Source of the DNA: Methyloglobulus morosus KoM1 | Lineage (GTDB): Bacteria; Pseudomonadota; Gammaproteobacteria; Methylococcales; Methylomonadaceae | Direction of reading: 5' to 3' | Assembly (NCBI RefSeq): GCF_000496735.2 | Contig: NZ_AYLO01000064.1 | Location: 1 to 50,029, forward strand | Length of the DNA stretch: 50,029 bases | Shown here: positions 1 through 5,713 of the stretch, piece by piece | How the letters are laid out: every line of letters begins with the position of its first letter | Numbering within the stretch: the first letter of the stretch is position 1 | Made by a program: the position numbers and the translations under genes | The notes under the pieces: generated by a model | Told to the model about the DNA's origin: nothing | What the model saw: the letters and a program-made list of their open reading frames with translations, nothing else | Database searches by the model: none

Positions 1-209
1 GTACTTAATGAGAATTTGGTTTTTTTTGCTCGGTAATATTTTGCCATATTGCTCTCTGCCTAGTTATAAACACTGGTTTTTGATGAAAGTACATAGCCAG
101 TACAGAGATACTATAAATCTTTGCTGAGTTGTCCTCTGCGCCAAACACGTTCAGTACATCAGATGAAAGTCTCCAAGCTTATACATGATCAATATGTCAG
201 TATGGTTAA

Positions 210-236
210 CTCTAAAAATTGTGGGCAATTTTAGAG
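210..236. repeat. hairpin-forming inverted repeat
   Basis: The arm CTCTAAAAATTG (210-221) pairs with CAATTTTAGAG (226-236) around a TGGG loop, giving an 11-bp stem with one bulged A. Neither side is followed by a T tract, so a simple intrinsic terminator is unlikely. The role is unknown. It could be a protein-binding palindrome or a decayed repeat. Confidence 0.5.
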
Positions 237-386
237 TCGAAAATTGCAATTGAACCTACCGTAAGCTTAAGGCCTTGGGATGAATTATATTATTTTAGTA
301 CATCTCCCGTGATTGGCGAGCTTTATGCAATAACTCCTAAAATTTCTTCTGGATTTTACGCCTTCAGAGAATATACAGGCTAAGTT

Positions 387-563
387 CCGTAGGTTGGGTT
401 AGGCGCACAAAACAAATCACGCTAAGATTTCAATCAGATTGTCCGTGCGCCGTAACCCAACATTGGGCGGCAATTCAACCTCCGAACGTTGGGTTACGAC
501 GCGCCCAAACACCTTAACACGCTTTATTGCCCTACAGTTTGCGCGTCTAACCCAACCTACCGG
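387..563. repeat. palindromic GTTGGGTTA repeat element (REP/MITE-like)
   Basis: An outer inverted repeat (left arm TAGGTTGGGTTAG near 390-402, right arm CTAACCCAACCTA near 547-559) encloses an inner one (CGTAACCCAAC at 451-461 and GTTGGGTTACG at 488-498). The element is about 175 bp, carries four copies of the core and encodes no protein. Repeats with this GTTGGGTTA-type core recur in intergenic DNA of many bacteria. The right edge lies 6 nt from the stop codon of the response regulator gene, so on the minus strand it would form the 3' end of that operon transcript. Mobility by a trans-acting transposase is inference. Confidence 0.7.
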
Positions 564-569
564 AATATC

Positions 570-1268
570 TTATTCAGAAGCATCCAACTTGTAGCCAAAC
601 CCGCGCACAGTCTTTAGAAGTTTTAAGTCAAAATTATCATCGATTTTTCGCCGCAACTGGCGGATGTACACATCCACCACATTGGTCAGGGGGTCGGCGC
701 TGTAGCCCCAGACTTGTTCCAGGATACGGGTGCGGCTTAATACCTTGCCGGGGACGCGCATAAAGCACTCCAGCAAGGCGAATTCCTTGGGGGTTAGGTC
801 GATTAGGGTGTCCCCGCGCCGCACTTCATGGGTCTCCCCGTTCAATATCAGGTCCGCTATCTGGAGCTCCCGGGTCTCGGGTTTAATATCGCCGCCGCGC
901 CGACGCATCAACACTTCAATCCGGGCCAGCAGTTCTTCAAAAGCGAAGGGCTTGGTCATGTAATCATCGGCTCCCGAACGCAAGCCGGTCACTTTGTCCT
1001 GCACGGTTTCCCTTGCCGTCAACATGAGGATAGGGGTGTCTATGCCAATGCTACGTAGCTGCTCGCAAACCTGTATGCCATTAAGGTCGGGCAGGCCCAA
1101 GTCCAGGATGATAGCCTGGAATTGTCCCTCAGTCCCCAGTGCTATGGCTTCCAGGCCGCTGCGTGCCACTTCGACGGCATAACCTTCTGCCTTTAGCCCG
1201 CGTTGGACAAAATCGACAATCCGCTGGTCGTCTTCTACAAGCAGGATCCGTGTATAACCAATATCCAT
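570..1268 (-). CDS. OmpR/PhoB-family response regulator
   Basis: A two-component transcription factor of 232 residues. The N-terminal receiver domain (about residues 6-118) has the acidic pair ED at 12-13, the phosphoacceptor Asp56 in ILDLGLP, Thr84 and the conserved Lys106 in TKPF. A C-terminal winged-helix DNA-binding domain (about 130-229) ends in the typical VRGFGYKL motif. All switch residues are present, so it should be phosphorylated normally. It is the last gene of a four-gene minus-strand operon, 32 nt after an intact sensor kinase that is its likely partner. The targets cannot be read from the sequence. Expected location is the cytoplasm, bound to DNA. The assignment to the family is secure and the pathway is unknown. 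Confidence 0.95.
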   Translation of the reverse strand: MDIGYTRILLVEDDQRIVDFVQRGLKAEGYAVEVARSGLEAIALGTEGQFQAIILDLGLPDLNGIQVCEQLRSIGIDTPILMLTARETVQDKVTGLRSGADDYMTKPFAFEELLARIEVLMRRRGGDIKPETRELQIADLILNGETHEVRRGDTLIDLTPKEFALLECFMRVPGKVLSRTRILEQVWGYSADPLTNVVDVYIRQLRRKIDDNFDLKLLKTVRGFGYKLDASE

Positions 1269-1300
1269 TAGCGTTTTATCTGTAGGTTAGTGTCCATGGA

Positions 1301-2899
1301 CTAGCTGCCATTTTGCCCCGCCGGAAGCAACGGAAGTGTAACAGTGAACGTCGAGCCTATGTTCTCCGTACTGGCAACCGTAATACTTCCGCCGTGTGCG
1401 TTTAAGATAGATTTTGCCATCGGCAAGCCCAGTCCGGTGCCATCGTTCCGCGAACGTCGGGCATTCTGGCTGCGGAATTGACGGTCAAAAATACGGTCCA
1501 AATCTTGGGTGGGTATGCCTATGCCTTGATCGGTTAGGGTAAAGACGGCTTCTTTGTCGTCTGTGCTTAACGCGATCCCGATGTGCCCTCCGAGTTTGGA
1601 ATATCGGCAAGAGTTATCGCCCAGGATGAACAGTACTTGTCGCAACCGCTGTTTGTCGCCGCGTACCCAGATGGGTTCGTTCGAGGCATCCAAGGAAATC
1701 GAAATCGAGTTCTCTGCGGCCATTACTTGAAAATTCTCGACGGCGCTGACCACGAGGTCGGTCAGGTCTACGCTATCCCATTCAAATTGTAGGTTGGCGG
1801 TTTCGGCACGGGCTAAAAAGAAGAGGTCGTTGACGTACTTCCCCAACTGCATCGATAACTCAAGAATACGGAGCAAAGCATCTTTATATTCCTCTGCATT
1901 ACGTTCCTGGCCTCTAAGGGTAACCTCCGCCTCGCCGCGAATGATGGTTATCGGGGTTCGTAGTTCATGGCTAAGGTCGGCCAAAAACGTCCGTCTCTCG
2001 CTATCCATGCGTTTTAATTCTTCATTTAACCCATGGAGTTCAAAAGTCCGGTCAGCCACCCGTTTTTCCAACAAGGCATGTCCCTCACGCAGCTTATCTT
2101 GCTGAAGTTCCAGCTTGGATGCCATCTGGTTGAAGTGATTGGCGAGATAGGCGAATTCATCTCGGGTATCGAGAGAAATGCGATAATGCAAATTGCCCGA
2201 CGCTATTTCTTCGGTGCTTTTCATCAATGTTTCGATAGGTTTCCTGACACCGTGCAGGAGAAACACCCCGGACATCAAGCTAAACATCGCCGCCACTACT
2301 GATGCCAGGATGGCAATCCAACGCGACTGGGCAACCAAATTCTCCAGTTCTTGCTTGGCATTTGCGGCTTTTTCGCGTTCTGCGTTGATGGCGGCATCGA
2401 TCAGGGGCTGGAATTTTCCGTCGATTTCTTCTTCGGAAAATTTCGAGAGCGTCTGCACTGCCATTTCGTTTTTGCCTTGTTGACGTAAGCGTTCGACTTC
2501 ATCAAACCAATACTCGCTGGCATCCAGGAACGCCGTGAAATGGGCAACCCTGGACATCTCGGCAGGTTTGTCCTGCATATCACCAATTAAATTCCCAGTG
2601 GCTGGCGTTTGTATTGCTGTGTTTCTAAGTTCCTGCATCGCTTCGTATAGGCGATTTTTGGAAGATGCTACGCCCGCTTCCGCCGTTGGGCTGGACGTTA
2701 TCAGCCTGTCCATCCGCTGCTTGAAATGGCGATAGGCTTCTTGGGACAACCGCTCATAACGGTCAAAAGCCTCATACGCCGTTTGGCTGCGCTGAAAATA
2801 CCGGGAAACTTGGTTTGAGCCCCAGTAGAGGGCGATCCCTAAAAACAAGACAAATCCGAACGAAACAACAATGACAACAGTCAGGCGAAAACGAAACAT
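1301..2899 (-). CDS. membrane sensor histidine kinase (intact)
   Basis: A 532-residue kinase. TM1 is about residues 7-27, followed by a periplasmic helical region of about 165 residues, TM2 about 193-216, HAMP about 217-270, HisKA with the H-box LSHELRTP (phosphoacceptor His311), and a HATPase_c domain with N-box DNSCRYS, G1 DQGIGI and G2 GTGLGL. The stop codon of the upstream lipoprotein gene lies only 5 nt before its ATG, so the two are very probably translationally coupled. The response regulator follows 32 nt downstream. The periplasmic part has no domain I recognise beyond a four-helix-bundle look. It should phosphorylate the neighbouring OmpR-type regulator. In this operon it contrasts with the upstream kinase, which lacks the histidine. 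Confidence 0.95.
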   Translation of the reverse strand: MFRFRLTVVIVVSFGFVLFLGIALYWGSNQVSRYFQRSQTAYEAFDRYERLSQEAYRHFKQRMDRLITSSPTAEAGVASSKNRLYEAMQELRNTAIQTPATGNLIGDMQDKPAEMSRVAHFTAFLDASEYWFDEVERLRQQGKNEMAVQTLSKFSEEEIDGKFQPLIDAAINAEREKAANAKQELENLVAQSRWIAILASVVAAMFSLMSGVFLLHGVRKPIETLMKSTEEIASGNLHYRISLDTRDEFAYLANHFNQMASKLELQQDKLREGHALLEKRVADRTFELHGLNEELKRMDSERRTFLADLSHELRTPITIIRGEAEVTLRGQERNAEEYKDALLRILELSMQLGKYVNDLFFLARAETANLQFEWDSVDLTDLVVSAVENFQVMAAENSISISLDASNEPIWVRGDKQRLRQVLFILGDNSCRYSKLGGHIGIALSTDDKEAVFTLTDQGIGIPTQDLDRIFDRQFRSQNARRSRNDGTGLGLPMAKSILNAHGGSITVASTENIGSTFTVTLPLLPAGQNGS

Positions 2900-2904
2900 G
2901 AGTT

Positions 2905-3477
2905 TTATTTTGCTTCTTCGTTCTCATCCAGGTGCTTTTCCATAGACCTGATGGCTTCTAGCTTTTCTCGTAACAGGCGGGTTTCATTTTTTTTCTCCCC
3001 GTTGTTGCTTTTCGATTCCGGTCCGGATGGTTCTGATCTTTGGCTACATTCCTGCGAGCCGTGCCTTCTTGAGGCATTGTTCAAGCGTTTTAAAATCTCC
3101 GTGTCTATGGTGACAAGTCGCTGTAATCTTGCATCGGGCATGTTTCCTGGAGGGATAGAATTTACGCCAGACAGTATCCTGGAAATATCGCCGCAGGCAT
3201 CGGATAGCAAACGGCCTATCATCAAGCGTAAGTAAATGTCAGGGTTAGGGGATATTTTTTGCTGTTTAAGCAAGCTGCGGCAAGTCTTCGCGCGTGTAGA
3301 GCTTGGCATCGTTGCCATGCCGGATCCGAAAGCTTGCAGTTCATCAAAGTCTGATTGTAAGTAGGAACTGTTGTAACGGTTGGAATATCCGTATCCAGAA
3401 TTAAATTCGGCACATCCAGCCAGCAGTAAAAGGCTGAGTGCTAATGTTATCGGTCGTATAGCGGTAGATGGTTGCAT
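2905..3477 (-). CDS. small QseG-like lipoprotein
   Basis: A 190-residue protein starting with a lipoprotein signal peptide: a hydrophobic stretch at about 10-20 and lipobox LLAGC with Cys22 as the lipidated residue. The mature part begins with an Asn/Ser/Tyr-rich linker. It then has a helical segment with two cysteines and a charged C-terminal helix (LLREKLEAIRSMEKHL) likely to form a coiled coil. It lies between two sensor kinase genes, 22 nt after the first and 5 nt before the second. In E. coli the lipoprotein QseG sits between kinase GlrK (QseE) and regulator GlrR. The size, the position after a GlrK-like kinase and the helical C-terminus suggest a functional analogue. Sequence identity to QseG is not obvious by eye, so the name stays tentative. 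Confidence 0.75.
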   Translation of the reverse strand: MQPSTAIRPITLALSLLLLAGCAEFNSGYGYSNRYNSSYLQSDFDELQAFGSGMATMPSSTRAKTCRSLLKQQKISPNPDIYLRLMIGRLLSDACGDISRILSGVNSIPPGNMPDARLQRLVTIDTEILKRLNNASRRHGSQECSQRSEPSGPESKSNNGEKKNETRLLREKLEAIRSMEKHLDENEEAK

Positions 3478-3499
3478 AATGATATTTGTACCCGATTGT

Positions 3500-5065
3500 T
3501 CAGGCTCCGCCGGCTAGCGGTAGCTGAACGCGGATACGAGCCCCTTGTTGGTCTTCCCTTGAATCAATAATATCGACATTGCCCTGATGGTTGGAAACAT
3601 ATTCTTTAACGATGGCAAGGCCTAATCCTGGCCCCTCGCTATTATCGTCGGGTTGGGGTGCTTTGCCACGGAAAAACGGCTCGAACACATGCGCCCGTTC
3701 ATCGGGTGCAATACCGATACCTTCATCTTCGATTTCCAGTTCCATCTGGGAGCCTGAATCACGTAACATGATGCGGATTTCGCCGCCCGTTGGTGAGAAC
3801 TTCACCGCATTTGACATGAGTTGTTCAATAATGCTTCGCAATTGATCGTGAATCCCGGAAATTTCGACCGGCCTGACCAGTTTTTTCAAGCGTATCGATT
3901 TGCTGTGCAAACGGGGTTGGAAGCTTTCGATGACCGATTCAAGCAAGACTTTCATATTGACAGTTTCCTTGCGGTTCAGTTCGGGCTTCGAGTTGATCTG
4001 GCTATAACGGACCAATTCCTCGGACACTGTTTTCAGCTTGTCAACATTGTTGCACAATAATAACGCGATGTTCTGTCTTGCAGGGTCTTGTTTTTCATTG
4101 GCCTCGTTCGCAAGCAGTTCTGCACCTTCACGAAGGCTTTCCAAAGGCATGTCGATTTCGCGAGCCACATTGTGCATGAACTGTTGTTTTGAAACCTCCA
4201 GCTCAATCAAATGTGTCCGCAGCCATTCCAGGCGATTGCCCAGATAACGCAGGTCAGAAGGCCCTTCAACATCAATGGGTTTATCCAGTTCGCCCGACCC
4301 TAAACAGCGGATACTGGCATCAAGTTGCCGCATTGAGCGCGAAAGTATAATTAGAAGTATGGCAATAAAGACAAAAGAGATGGCCAGTAGAACTGCGCCT
4401 TTGGTTAATAGCCCTTGTTCAAGGGATACGGATTGTTGGCGCAATTCGTTGAATTCATGTTCAACATAGCCTTCGAATTCACGCGAAAGGTTATTGGAAG
4501 ATTCCCGAAGCCCTTGGAATGCTTCATCGACGGGTAATGTGAGGTCTTTCTCAGTTGGCGAGTTAATGATTTGCTGATAAATCAGGCTTTCTTTTTCTGA
4601 TAATTCATTGACAGATAAGGCGATTTTGTTATTGACGTGCAATTTCTGCAAGGCGCTCAAGGCTTGGTTGAACGATGCCCGTGTGCTTTCATAAGATTGC
4701 CGCTCGTAAGGTTGGCGCAAGGTTGGGTCCGACAGGAGCAGGAACAGCCGGGCTTTCCGCTCGATATCGGATGTTTTTTGCAAAACCAGGCGAATCGCTT
4801 TGGTTTGTTCGAAAACCTGGGAATTGATAGTCCTCCCTAATGCTGAGGTTTCGCGCATACCAAAAGCGGCGTACATTACGGCTAAAAAAAGCGGGATCAC
4901 GGCAATTACAAAACCCAGTACAATCAACGATTTTAGCGATAAAAGTTTCTTGAACTTTAATCGCCTGGAAACAGGTATGCACAGTTCCTCTAGCTTCGGC
5001 CAAAGCGATGCCAAATTCAGTTTACTGAGAATATCAAGACCGAAATGGGTAATGCGTTCTTTCAT
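3500..5065 (-). CDS. GlrK/QseE-like sensor kinase lacking the phosphoacceptor histidine
   Basis: A 521-residue membrane protein. TM1 is about residues 43-66, a helical periplasmic domain spans about 67-220, TM2 about 222-242, then a HAMP-like linker, a HisKA-like dimerisation helix and a complete HATPase_c domain (N-box NAVKFS with Asn419, G1 DEGIGI, G2 GPGLGL). At the H-box, where SHELRTP is expected, it reads AREIDMP: residue 302 is Arg, encoded by CGC at 4162-4160, one base from CAC. The Leu-Arg-Thr of the motif is also changed. The following PLESLREG matches the GlrK style. It therefore looks able to bind ATP but not to autophosphorylate. It is the first gene of the operon. It could act as a phosphatase, an allosteric partner of the second kinase, or a scaffold for the lipoprotein. 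Confidence 0.9.
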   Translation of the reverse strand: MKERITHFGLDILSKLNLASLWPKLEELCIPVSRRLKFKKLLSLKSLIVLGFVIAVIPLFLAVMYAAFGMRETSALGRTINSQVFEQTKAIRLVLQKTSDIERKARLFLLLSDPTLRQPYERQSYESTRASFNQALSALQKLHVNNKIALSVNELSEKESLIYQQIINSPTEKDLTLPVDEAFQGLRESSNNLSREFEGYVEHEFNELRQQSVSLEQGLLTKGAVLLAISFVFIAILLIILSRSMRQLDASIRCLGSGELDKPIDVEGPSDLRYLGNRLEWLRTHLIELEVSKQQFMHNVAREIDMPLESLREGAELLANEANEKQDPARQNIALLLCNNVDKLKTVSEELVRYSQINSKPELNRKETVNMKVLLESVIESFQPRLHSKSIRLKKLVRPVEISGIHDQLRSIIEQLMSNAVKFSPTGGEIRIMLRDSGSQMELEIEDEGIGIAPDERAHVFEPFFRGKAPQPDDNSEGPGLGLAIVKEYVSNHQGNVDIIDSREDQQGARIRVQLPLAGGA

Positions 5066-5637
5066 TGTTTTCCATGTTTGATTGTCAAAAGGATCCCTCT
5101 CTCCAATAAACTGTTCGGGAGGCCAAACCGCATGGCGCTAAGGCCTAAGGCTACCGTGATTTTTCAAGCAACATTTTAACCTAAATATTGTATACGCTGA
5201 TTGTTGATTGAGTTCTATGAGGTTGGTAGATTTTTATCTCCTATGGGATTCTACAGCCAGATTGCTTGTGCAATGCATTGATAGGGGATGACGGCCTATC
5301 GCTAATCGGATAATACGGTGATATTCTGAAGAAATGCTTATGTCCATACAAGCACAACAGAAGATGATAGTTACAAAACCTACTTGTTAGGAATGCAGTA
5401 AAATTGGGTGTTCCTTAAGGGTTGAAATTATTTCTTTGGGAGACTTTCCTTCTGGCAAGTCTGGCATCAATTTCGGCCGTTGTGCCGAGGCTGGGAATTG
5501 GCCCTTGAAATGAGATGTCAAAGCAAATACCAATTTTGAATCACAATAACGGCCTGATGTCTATTTCTCGATAGACAAATTGTTGATTAAAACTTTTTTT
5601 GGTATATAATCGCTTGTTCTTTAGTTACGTCTGAAAC
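5066..5637. other. intergenic region between the signalling operon and tRNA-Trp
   Basis: No coding region is convincing on either strand. It should contain the minus-strand promoter of the kinase operon, but I find no well-spaced -35/-10 pair for it. A TACAAT-like -10 on the minus strand near 5190 lacks a good -35. Small inverted repeats occur (GATAGG at 5280-5285 with CCTATC at 5295-5300) and could be an operator. The right end carries the tRNA-Trp promoter, listed separately. The tuf gene that often sits here in gammaproteobacteria is absent. Confidence 0.6.
5583..5610 (+). promoter_or_regulatory. sigma70-type promoter of tRNA-Trp / secE-nusG
   Basis: The -35 TTGATT (5583-5588) and a perfect -10 TATAAT (5605-5610) are separated by 16 nt. 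The tRNA starts 28 nt after the -10, leaving a short 5' leader. This is the only strong promoter seen before secE, so the tRNA and secE-nusG are probably made from one transcript. Confidence 0.75.
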
Positions 5638-5713
5638 AGGTCAGTAGTTCAATTGGTAGAATGGCGGTCTCCAAAACCGTTGGTTGGGGGTTCGAGACCC
5701 TCCTGGCCTGCCA
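5638..5713 (+). tRNA. tRNA-Trp (anticodon CCA)
   Basis: A full cloverleaf of 76 nt. The acceptor arm AGGTCAG (5638-5644) pairs with CTGGCCT (5703-5709), followed by discriminator G and an encoded CCA end. The anticodon stem GCGGT/ACCGT encloses a seven-base loop with CCA at 5671-5673. The T-loop shows GGTTCGAGACC-type sequence. It reads UGG codons. It lies 53 nt upstream of secE and is probably processed out of the same transcript. Confidence 0.97.

Follow-up and report, generated by a model that had tools for sequence, protein, structure and literature searches.

A branch of QseE-type sensor kinases that has lost its phosphoacceptor histidine is retained with a QseG-like lipoprotein and an intact second kinase

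Results

A cluster of two sensor kinases, a lipoprotein and a response regulator

The window (the whole stretch of DNA that was analysed, 50,029 nt of Methyloglobulus morosus KoM1, contig NZ_AYLO01000064.1 of assembly GCF_000496735.2) contains a four-gene cluster that spans positions 570-5065 on the minus strand, with intergenic gaps of 5 to 32 bases:

3500-5065, minus strand: HK1, a QseE/GlrK-type sensor with a dead phosphoacceptor site, 521 aa
2905-3477, minus strand: QseG-like lipoprotein, 190 aa, with lipobox Cys22
1301-2899, minus strand: HK2, an intact sensor kinase (SHELRTP, ATP site), 532 aa
570-1268, minus strand: OmpR-type response regulator, 232 aa

Note that inverted repeats are present around GTAGGTTGGGTTA at window positions 386-560, downstream of the regulator gene; these resemble REP or MITE elements. 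On its other side the cluster faces tRNA-Trp and secE-nusG, with HK1 as the gene nearest to them.

HK1 carries arginine at the phosphoacceptor position

The initial annotation had described HK1 as a sensor kinase with arginine at the phosphoacceptor position and with intact ATP-site motifs (Asn419, DEGIGI and GPGLGL), and both descriptions were confirmed; plus-strand GCG at 4160-4162 is CGC on the minus strand. The relevant positions of HK1 are:

4160-4162, minus strand: Arg302 codon CGC, phosphoacceptor His position
4148-4150, minus strand: Met306 codon, position His+4 (Thr in 39/39 canonical QseE rows)
3809-3811, minus strand: N-box Asn419, retained
3710-3727, minus strand: G1 box DEGIGI, residues 447-452, retained
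3617-3634, minus strand: G2 box GPGLGL, residues 478-483, retained

The motif at the site is NVAREIDMPLESLREG, as compared with, for example, HVSHEIKTPL in relatives of QseE, so that Arg302 and Met306 stand in place of the phosphoacceptor histidine and the threonine at His+4. HK1 scores below the curated cut-off for Pfam HisKA (PF00512; 13.5 versus 26.9 bits) and above that for HATPase_c (PF02518; 88.8 versus 26.4 bits).

HK1 is related to QseE

Residues 43-516 of HK1 match the QseE-type chain 9m08_C (E 8.7e-38). In a 117-row tree built without the His-box columns, all 78 HK1 rows form one branch within canonical QseE (SH-aLRT 100), the tree being a quick LG+G4 reconstruction with long-branch warnings in which the position of truncated rows is unsure. 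Eight near copies or partial canonical sequences (L017, L018, L031, L177, L220, L225, L226 and L228) were excluded from the tree and from the canonical counts, as was L185, an HK1 with Leu at the site that is cut by a contig end; the matches at L194 and L195 are other kinases. As judged from these alignments, HK1 descends from a QseE kinase.

The canonical gene order, in which a histidine-bearing QseE is followed by the lipoprotein and an AAA-type regulator, is found at L173, L174 and L176 of the window's order, and the order in E. coli K-12 is glrK-qseG-glrR. The operon of the window has HK2 and an OmpR-type regulator where the NtrC-type QseF/GlrR would be expected. At E 1e-120 a close QseF is absent from the window's genome; it is present in only 1/63 HK1-bearing genomes of the window's family and in none of the three genomes with short-form HK1, and in all 11 f4 genomes that have both HK1 and a canonical QseE match.

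HK1 was not found in the seven other genomes of the window's genus, two of which are less than 90% complete, and secE/nusG are absent from the fetched flanks of other HK1 loci. For window positions 1-5700 this suggests gain by transfer or relocation in the window's genome. A class-wide search of 369 sampled genomes at E 1e-80 matched nothing beyond the window's genome and a single canonical QseE from the same order.

The histidine has been lost across the HK1 branch

Among the 73 HK1 rows in which the domain is retained (a count that leaves out the five truncated HK1s, for which the site has no state), 68 have a residue other than histidine at the phosphoacceptor position, as compared with none of the 39 canonical QseE rows. 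The residues are R (51 rows), L (5), H (5), E (3), N (2), T (2) and one each of K, C, I, Y and D; Arg is carried by, among others, the isolates Methylobacter tundripaludum SV96, Methylomonas sp. LW13 and Methylovulum miyakonense HT12. With eleven residue types at the site, we rejected the idea that Arg is a conserved functional residue. The expectation that homologues would share the change was borne out for the absence of histidine, while Arg itself is not the conserved feature. We likewise rejected a sequencing error or recent mutation, because the absence of histidine is branch-wide. The earlier view of HK1 as an established pseudokinase is thus upheld by 68 of the 73 homologous rows and, in addition, by dN/dS values well below 1 in both halves of HK1 in 13 close pairs.

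The initial annotation had held that histidine-bearing orthologues with the same gene order would refute a pseudokinase, and such orthologues do exist in 5/73 rows (L142-L145 and L158). L142-L145 are four close Methylomonas-type sequences that read HEIEAP, to which the named loci L091 and L099 are identical there, and L158 reads HEINRP; at His+4 these rows have Ala or Arg. The tree nests them within Arg clades. Scored as histidine or not, the site changes three times, with one loss and two regains; if regain is denied, 15 losses are required. We therefore rejected these orthologues as evidence of an active family. The phosphoacceptor histidine, on this reconstruction, was lost near the base of the HK1 branch.

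Phosphatase activity of HisKA kinases uses the residue at His+4. Thr occupies this position in all 39 canonical rows and in just 8 of the 73 HK1 rows (L148, L160, L164, L165, L167, L168, L175 and L183); Asn occurs there in none, which leaves 65/73 rows with neither. The suggestion that HK1 might act as a phosphatase is accordingly unsupported for most members, the protein of the window with its Met included. By the usual rules for HisKA proteins, the losses at His and His+4 would make HK1 no kinase and, for the most part, no phosphatase.

The ATP pocket and the periplasmic sensor of HK1 are retained

The ATP pocket of HK1 has been kept, with the N-box Asn in 71/73 rows, the Asp in 73/73 and glycine 480 of the G2 box in all 70 rows that have a letter there; the Glu at His+1 is present in 70/73. 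Note that in L167 and L168 the N-box Asn is also gone (Leu), and ATP binding may be lost there.

Mean pairwise identities differ between the three kinase groups (the five truncated HK1s and L158 were excluded from this comparison). For HK1 they are 0.700 in the sensor, 0.496 in DHp and 0.622 in CA, for canonical QseE 0.274, 0.549 and 0.428, and for HK2 0.621, 0.808 and 0.650, respectively. Conservation of the sensor exceeds that of the core in 88.8% of 2556 HK1 pairs; the corresponding shares are 0.3% of 703 pairs for canonical QseE and 11.0% of 3081 pairs for HK2. In the 13 close pairs dN/dS is 0.02-0.18 across both halves of HK1, and 0.06-0.18 in the core. These low values in both halves argue that the kinase half, where retained, is still under selection, though not for phosphoacceptance. 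We rejected a contrast in dN/dS between sensor and core as uninformative, because HK2 goes in the same direction in 10/11 close pairs; in these alignments HK1 and HK2 are set apart by their long-range identities and not by that contrast.

Some HK1 proteins have no kinase half

The kinase region is missing from HK1 in five genomes (L198, L199 and L200 of genus g49, and L179 and L184 of genus g48), in all of which the lipoprotein gene still follows HK1, and in four of which HK2 follows as well. HK1 at L198-L200 consists only of a transmembrane segment, the periplasmic bundle and a second transmembrane segment; Pfam detected no HAMP, HisKA or ATPase domain in these three proteins, and their BLAST match reaches residue 239 of HK1 at most. 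The lipoprotein gene lies immediately next to this short HK1 or overlaps it, and is followed by HK2 (44% identity) and the regulator (66% and 65%; that of L200 is cut by a contig end).

In L179 and L184 the sensor and HAMP region are present at 61% and 56% identity, and HK1 then finishes with some 70 further residues, which in L179 include a trace of the first DHp helix. There is no room for a kinase domain at these two loci because the lipoprotein frame begins there. L184 continues with HK2 and the regulator, and the contig of L179 ends after the lipoprotein gene. HK1 is full-length at L155 and L154, from two further g48 genomes, where the site has R and E, respectively. Since the g49 and g48 sets are separate on the tree, each with long branches, the kinase half has likely, though not certainly, been lost twice. 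Heterodimerisation of HK1, which the initial annotation had raised, is possible; it cannot need the kinase half everywhere, because five genomes are without it.

The lipoprotein resembles QseG and the docking segment is conserved

The lipoprotein gene is present at 76/79 HK1 loci; the exceptions are L185, at a contig end, and two extra HK1 copies, L175 and L183. In a profile comparison (hhalign) the lipoprotein matched the canonical QseG set with a probability of 99.9 (E 2.4e-34, 22% identity), and Cys22 of the lipobox is invariant in 38 lipoprotein rows. With VIA-align, QseG chains took rows 1-4 for the lipoprotein model with Z of 9.3, 9.0, 8.8 and 7.8, the next, unrelated protein having Z 6.7; these QseG rows cover 124-133 residues at a large rmsd of 8.7-15.4, and Z values in this range are common for helical proteins. 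For these reasons the claim of QseG-likeness is carried by the profile match. Foldseek alone did not match the model to QseG and returned nothing at E 0.001, and QseG was not among the matches when PDB sequences were searched with the lipoprotein alone.

The segments equivalent to the QseE-QseG contact are:

4721-4762, minus strand: HK1 residues 102-115, ERKARLFLLLSDPT, equivalent of the QseG-docking helix of QseE
2923-2964, minus strand: lipoprotein C-terminal motif KLEAIRSMEKHLDE, equivalent of the QseE-contact helix of QseG

In Salmonella, as described in PMC12691602, QseG binding was abolished by R70A and reduced by R73A in QseE, and L209D and R219A in QseG each abolished QseE binding. HK1 residues 102-115 align without gaps to the docking segment of QseE, and the docking residues R70, R73, L78 and D80 of the QseE periplasmic helix have their counterparts in HK1. 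The equivalent of R70 is Arg in 75/75 alignable HK1 rows, the five truncated forms included (the rows gapped there are L158, at a contig end, and the extra copies L175 and L183). The equivalent of R73 is Arg or Lys in 74/76 rows and that of D80 is Asp in 71/77; all five truncated HK1s keep the E, R, R and D of the segment. On the side of the lipoprotein, a C-terminal KLEAIRSMEKxLDE motif is nearly invariant among 76 homologues, in which the equivalent of L209 is Ile in 75/76 and that of E213 is Glu in 76/76; a conserved equivalent of R219 is absent from these homologues. From the conserved contact residues we infer that the lipoprotein would dock on HK1.

The extra HK1 copies (L175:6992-8413 and L183:6989-8503, in genomes G078 and G077) have Asn or Asp at the His position and Thr at His+4, no lipoprotein gene nearby and a docking segment that is not alignable.

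HK2 is intact and is inherited together with HK1

The phosphoacceptor of HK2 lies at:

1967-1969, minus strand: HK2 His311 codon (His in 79/79 rows)

The Glu at His+1, the Thr at His+4 and the N-box Asn are, like the histidine, each present in 79/79 HK2 rows. A model of HK2 has four long helices ahead of the kinase core (mean pLDDT 78, pTM 0.41).

HK1 and HK2 occur together in 76/79 genomes that hold either, and neither is found in 232 of the 311 genomes of the window's order. (Three short HK1s of genus g49 are below the search threshold, yet were counted as HK1, and G075, G081 and G088, which exceed the HK1 threshold by canonical QseE alone, were not.) HK1 occurs without HK2 in G112 (75% complete), and HK2 without HK1 in G214, where the contig ends inside the lipoprotein gene beside HK2, and in G091 (72% complete). 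A canonical QseE match is present in 26 f4 genomes; 11 of these have HK1 and 12 have HK2, those 11 included. By gene content, then, HK1 accompanies HK2 more than canonical QseE. The co-occurrence of HK1 and HK2 is partly due to shared descent.

In seven f4 genomes (G057, G074, G077-G080 and G105) the HK1-lipoprotein pair is apart from the HK2 gene, both being present. On the tree the unlinked forms take more basal positions than the linked ones (SH-aLRT 97, 92 and 96), and therefore the partnership of HK1 and HK2 seems older than their linkage; the order in which the unlinked arrangement came first and the operon later seems to hold to the extent that these three branches do.

Discussion

HK1 as a probable co-receptor

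We think it rather more probable than otherwise that HK1 is a kinase-dead QseE that survives as a co-receptor or antenna with the QseG-like lipoprotein and feeds HK2 and the regulator. The lipoprotein would dock on the periplasmic bundle of HK1, and HK1 and HK2 would share one inner-membrane complex, a mixed dimer or higher oligomer held through membrane and periplasmic helices. HK1 would shift HK2 between kinase and phosphatase states, and the OmpR-type regulator would be phosphorylated by His311 of HK2, such that the envelope signal comes from HK1 and the phosphate chemistry is done by HK2. Co-inheritance, the formation of the operon and the truncated forms point to contact between HK1 and HK2; forms that lack DHp or CA have persisted, which argues that membrane or periplasmic helices can carry the coupling. 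In full-length HK1 the kept ATP pocket suggests a continuing role for nucleotide binding, possibly in switching conformation; this pocket and the purifying selection on the core argue that the kinase half still serves a purpose in these proteins. Both of these features also count against a co-receptor, as do the shared descent behind part of the co-occurrence, the histidine in 5/73 rows, the absence of the lipoprotein beside L175 and L183 and of an alignable docking segment in them, the unconserved equivalent of R219 and the failure of Foldseek to match QseG.

The main rival, to which we give a much smaller chance, is trans-phosphorylation within a mixed HK1-HK2 dimer, with His311 of HK2 receiving phosphate from the intact ATP-binding domain of HK1, which would then be a kinase that has no acceptor of its own. 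An ATP pocket that is intact in nearly all full-length HK1s, the Glu at His+1 in 70/73 rows and purifying selection on the core speak for this reading; yet DHp, the dimerisation domain, has the lowest mean identity within HK1 (0.496), HK1 and HK2 share just about 23% identity in and around DHp, and five genomes dispense with the HK1 kinase half. We regard it as improbable that HK1 serves the regulator of the operon, or QseF, by acting as a phosphatase or by drawing off phosphate as a sink. Kinase folds without the histidine can retain phosphatase activity, and several of the eight rows with Thr at His+4 are basal, but the protein of the window has Met there, 65/73 rows have neither Thr nor Asn, a close QseF accompanies HK1 in just one of the 63 HK1-bearing genomes of the window's family, and there are HK1 forms without a cytoplasmic half.

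No better odds attach to a DivL-like arrangement, in which the cytoplasmic fold of HK1 would bind the phosphorylated regulator and report to HK2, so that information runs inward from the regulator. The kept histidine-kinase fold and ATP pocket agree with it and DivL itself is a precedent (PMC5361649), although constraint on HK1 is concentrated on the periplasmic sensor and five genomes do without the cytoplasmic half. Least probable of all, and in our view very unlikely, is that HK1 is a functionless, decaying relic or that the Arg is an error. The many residue types at the His position and the truncation of HK1 in two genera could be read as decay; dN/dS of 0.02-0.18 in 13 close pairs, a mean sensor identity of 0.700 over 2556 pairs and retention with HK2 in 76/79 genomes that hold either speak against it.

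As to what a co-receptor of this kind might control, the neighbouring genes offer some hints. In 41/69 HK1-bearing loci scanned, HK1 adjoins a divergently transcribed gene whose product has about 1220 aa (fewer where the gene is cut), for example at L153:8764-12423; the window's genome has a relative of it on another contig (G000:C13:217-3789, 63%). Pfam gave no match for two examples of this protein and PDB sequence searches gave none for the examples tested; its motifs seem to resemble those of clan-A glycosidases. Among 77 loci scanned, flanking genes for a sugar transferase recur in 19, for polysaccharide export in 15 and for a Wzc-like protein in 7. A surface polysaccharide may be what is controlled, a guess that we hold to be possible, if doubtful. 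Polysaccharide genes are also seen near HK1 or the HK2-regulator pair at L102, L105, L191, L194, L195 and L196.

Comparison with known systems

Both dead histidine kinases (DivL and a ChrS variant) and the QseE-QseG pair are already known. With the QseE-QseG-QseF (GlrK-QseG-GlrR) system of enterobacteria, as described in PMC12691602, the HK1 cluster shares the kinase family, a periplasmic sensor with a QseG-docking segment and a lipoprotein gene directly downstream; in contrast to that system it has no phosphoacceptor histidine and no QseF, and has a second kinase and an OmpR-type regulator instead. The QseE survey in PMC12691602 left out genomes without operon-encoded QseG/QseF, and therefore would not have retained the HK1 form. 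In the open-licence PMC literature we found no branch of dead QseE that has retained QseG and become associated with a different kinase.

The HK1 branch offers a graded natural series that leads from canonical QseE through loss of the histidine, loss of both the histidine and the His+4 residue, and a kinase core reduced to a stub, to forms with no cytoplasmic domain. Because the intact partner kinase is kept throughout, the job of a dead sensor kinase becomes directly testable. The branch would also show how an outer-membrane lipoprotein sensor module has, over evolution, exchanged one downstream kinase for another.

The histidine is said to be missing from about 1% of histidine kinases, few of which have been studied (PMC5361649). 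DivL of Caulobacter, which has a histidine-kinase fold with Tyr at the His position, modulates a partner kinase (PMC5361649), and HK1 is like pseudokinases of this type in that the histidine is lost and the kinase fold retained. However, DivL, as described there, senses a phosphorylated regulator by way of its cytoplasmic half, whereas HK1 is organised around its periplasmic sensor and a lipoprotein, and a cytoplasmic kinase half is absent from some of its relatives. The ChrS pseudokinase of evolved Corynebacterium glutamicum is a kinase-dead sensor that raises output via HrrS; PMC9491836 reports that native ChrS and HrrS heterodimerise, and in that study truncated ChrS was not seen to do so. 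That variant arose by a laboratory frameshift in the ATPase domain and retains its histidine (PMC9491836), whereas the dead state of HK1 is natural and branch-wide.
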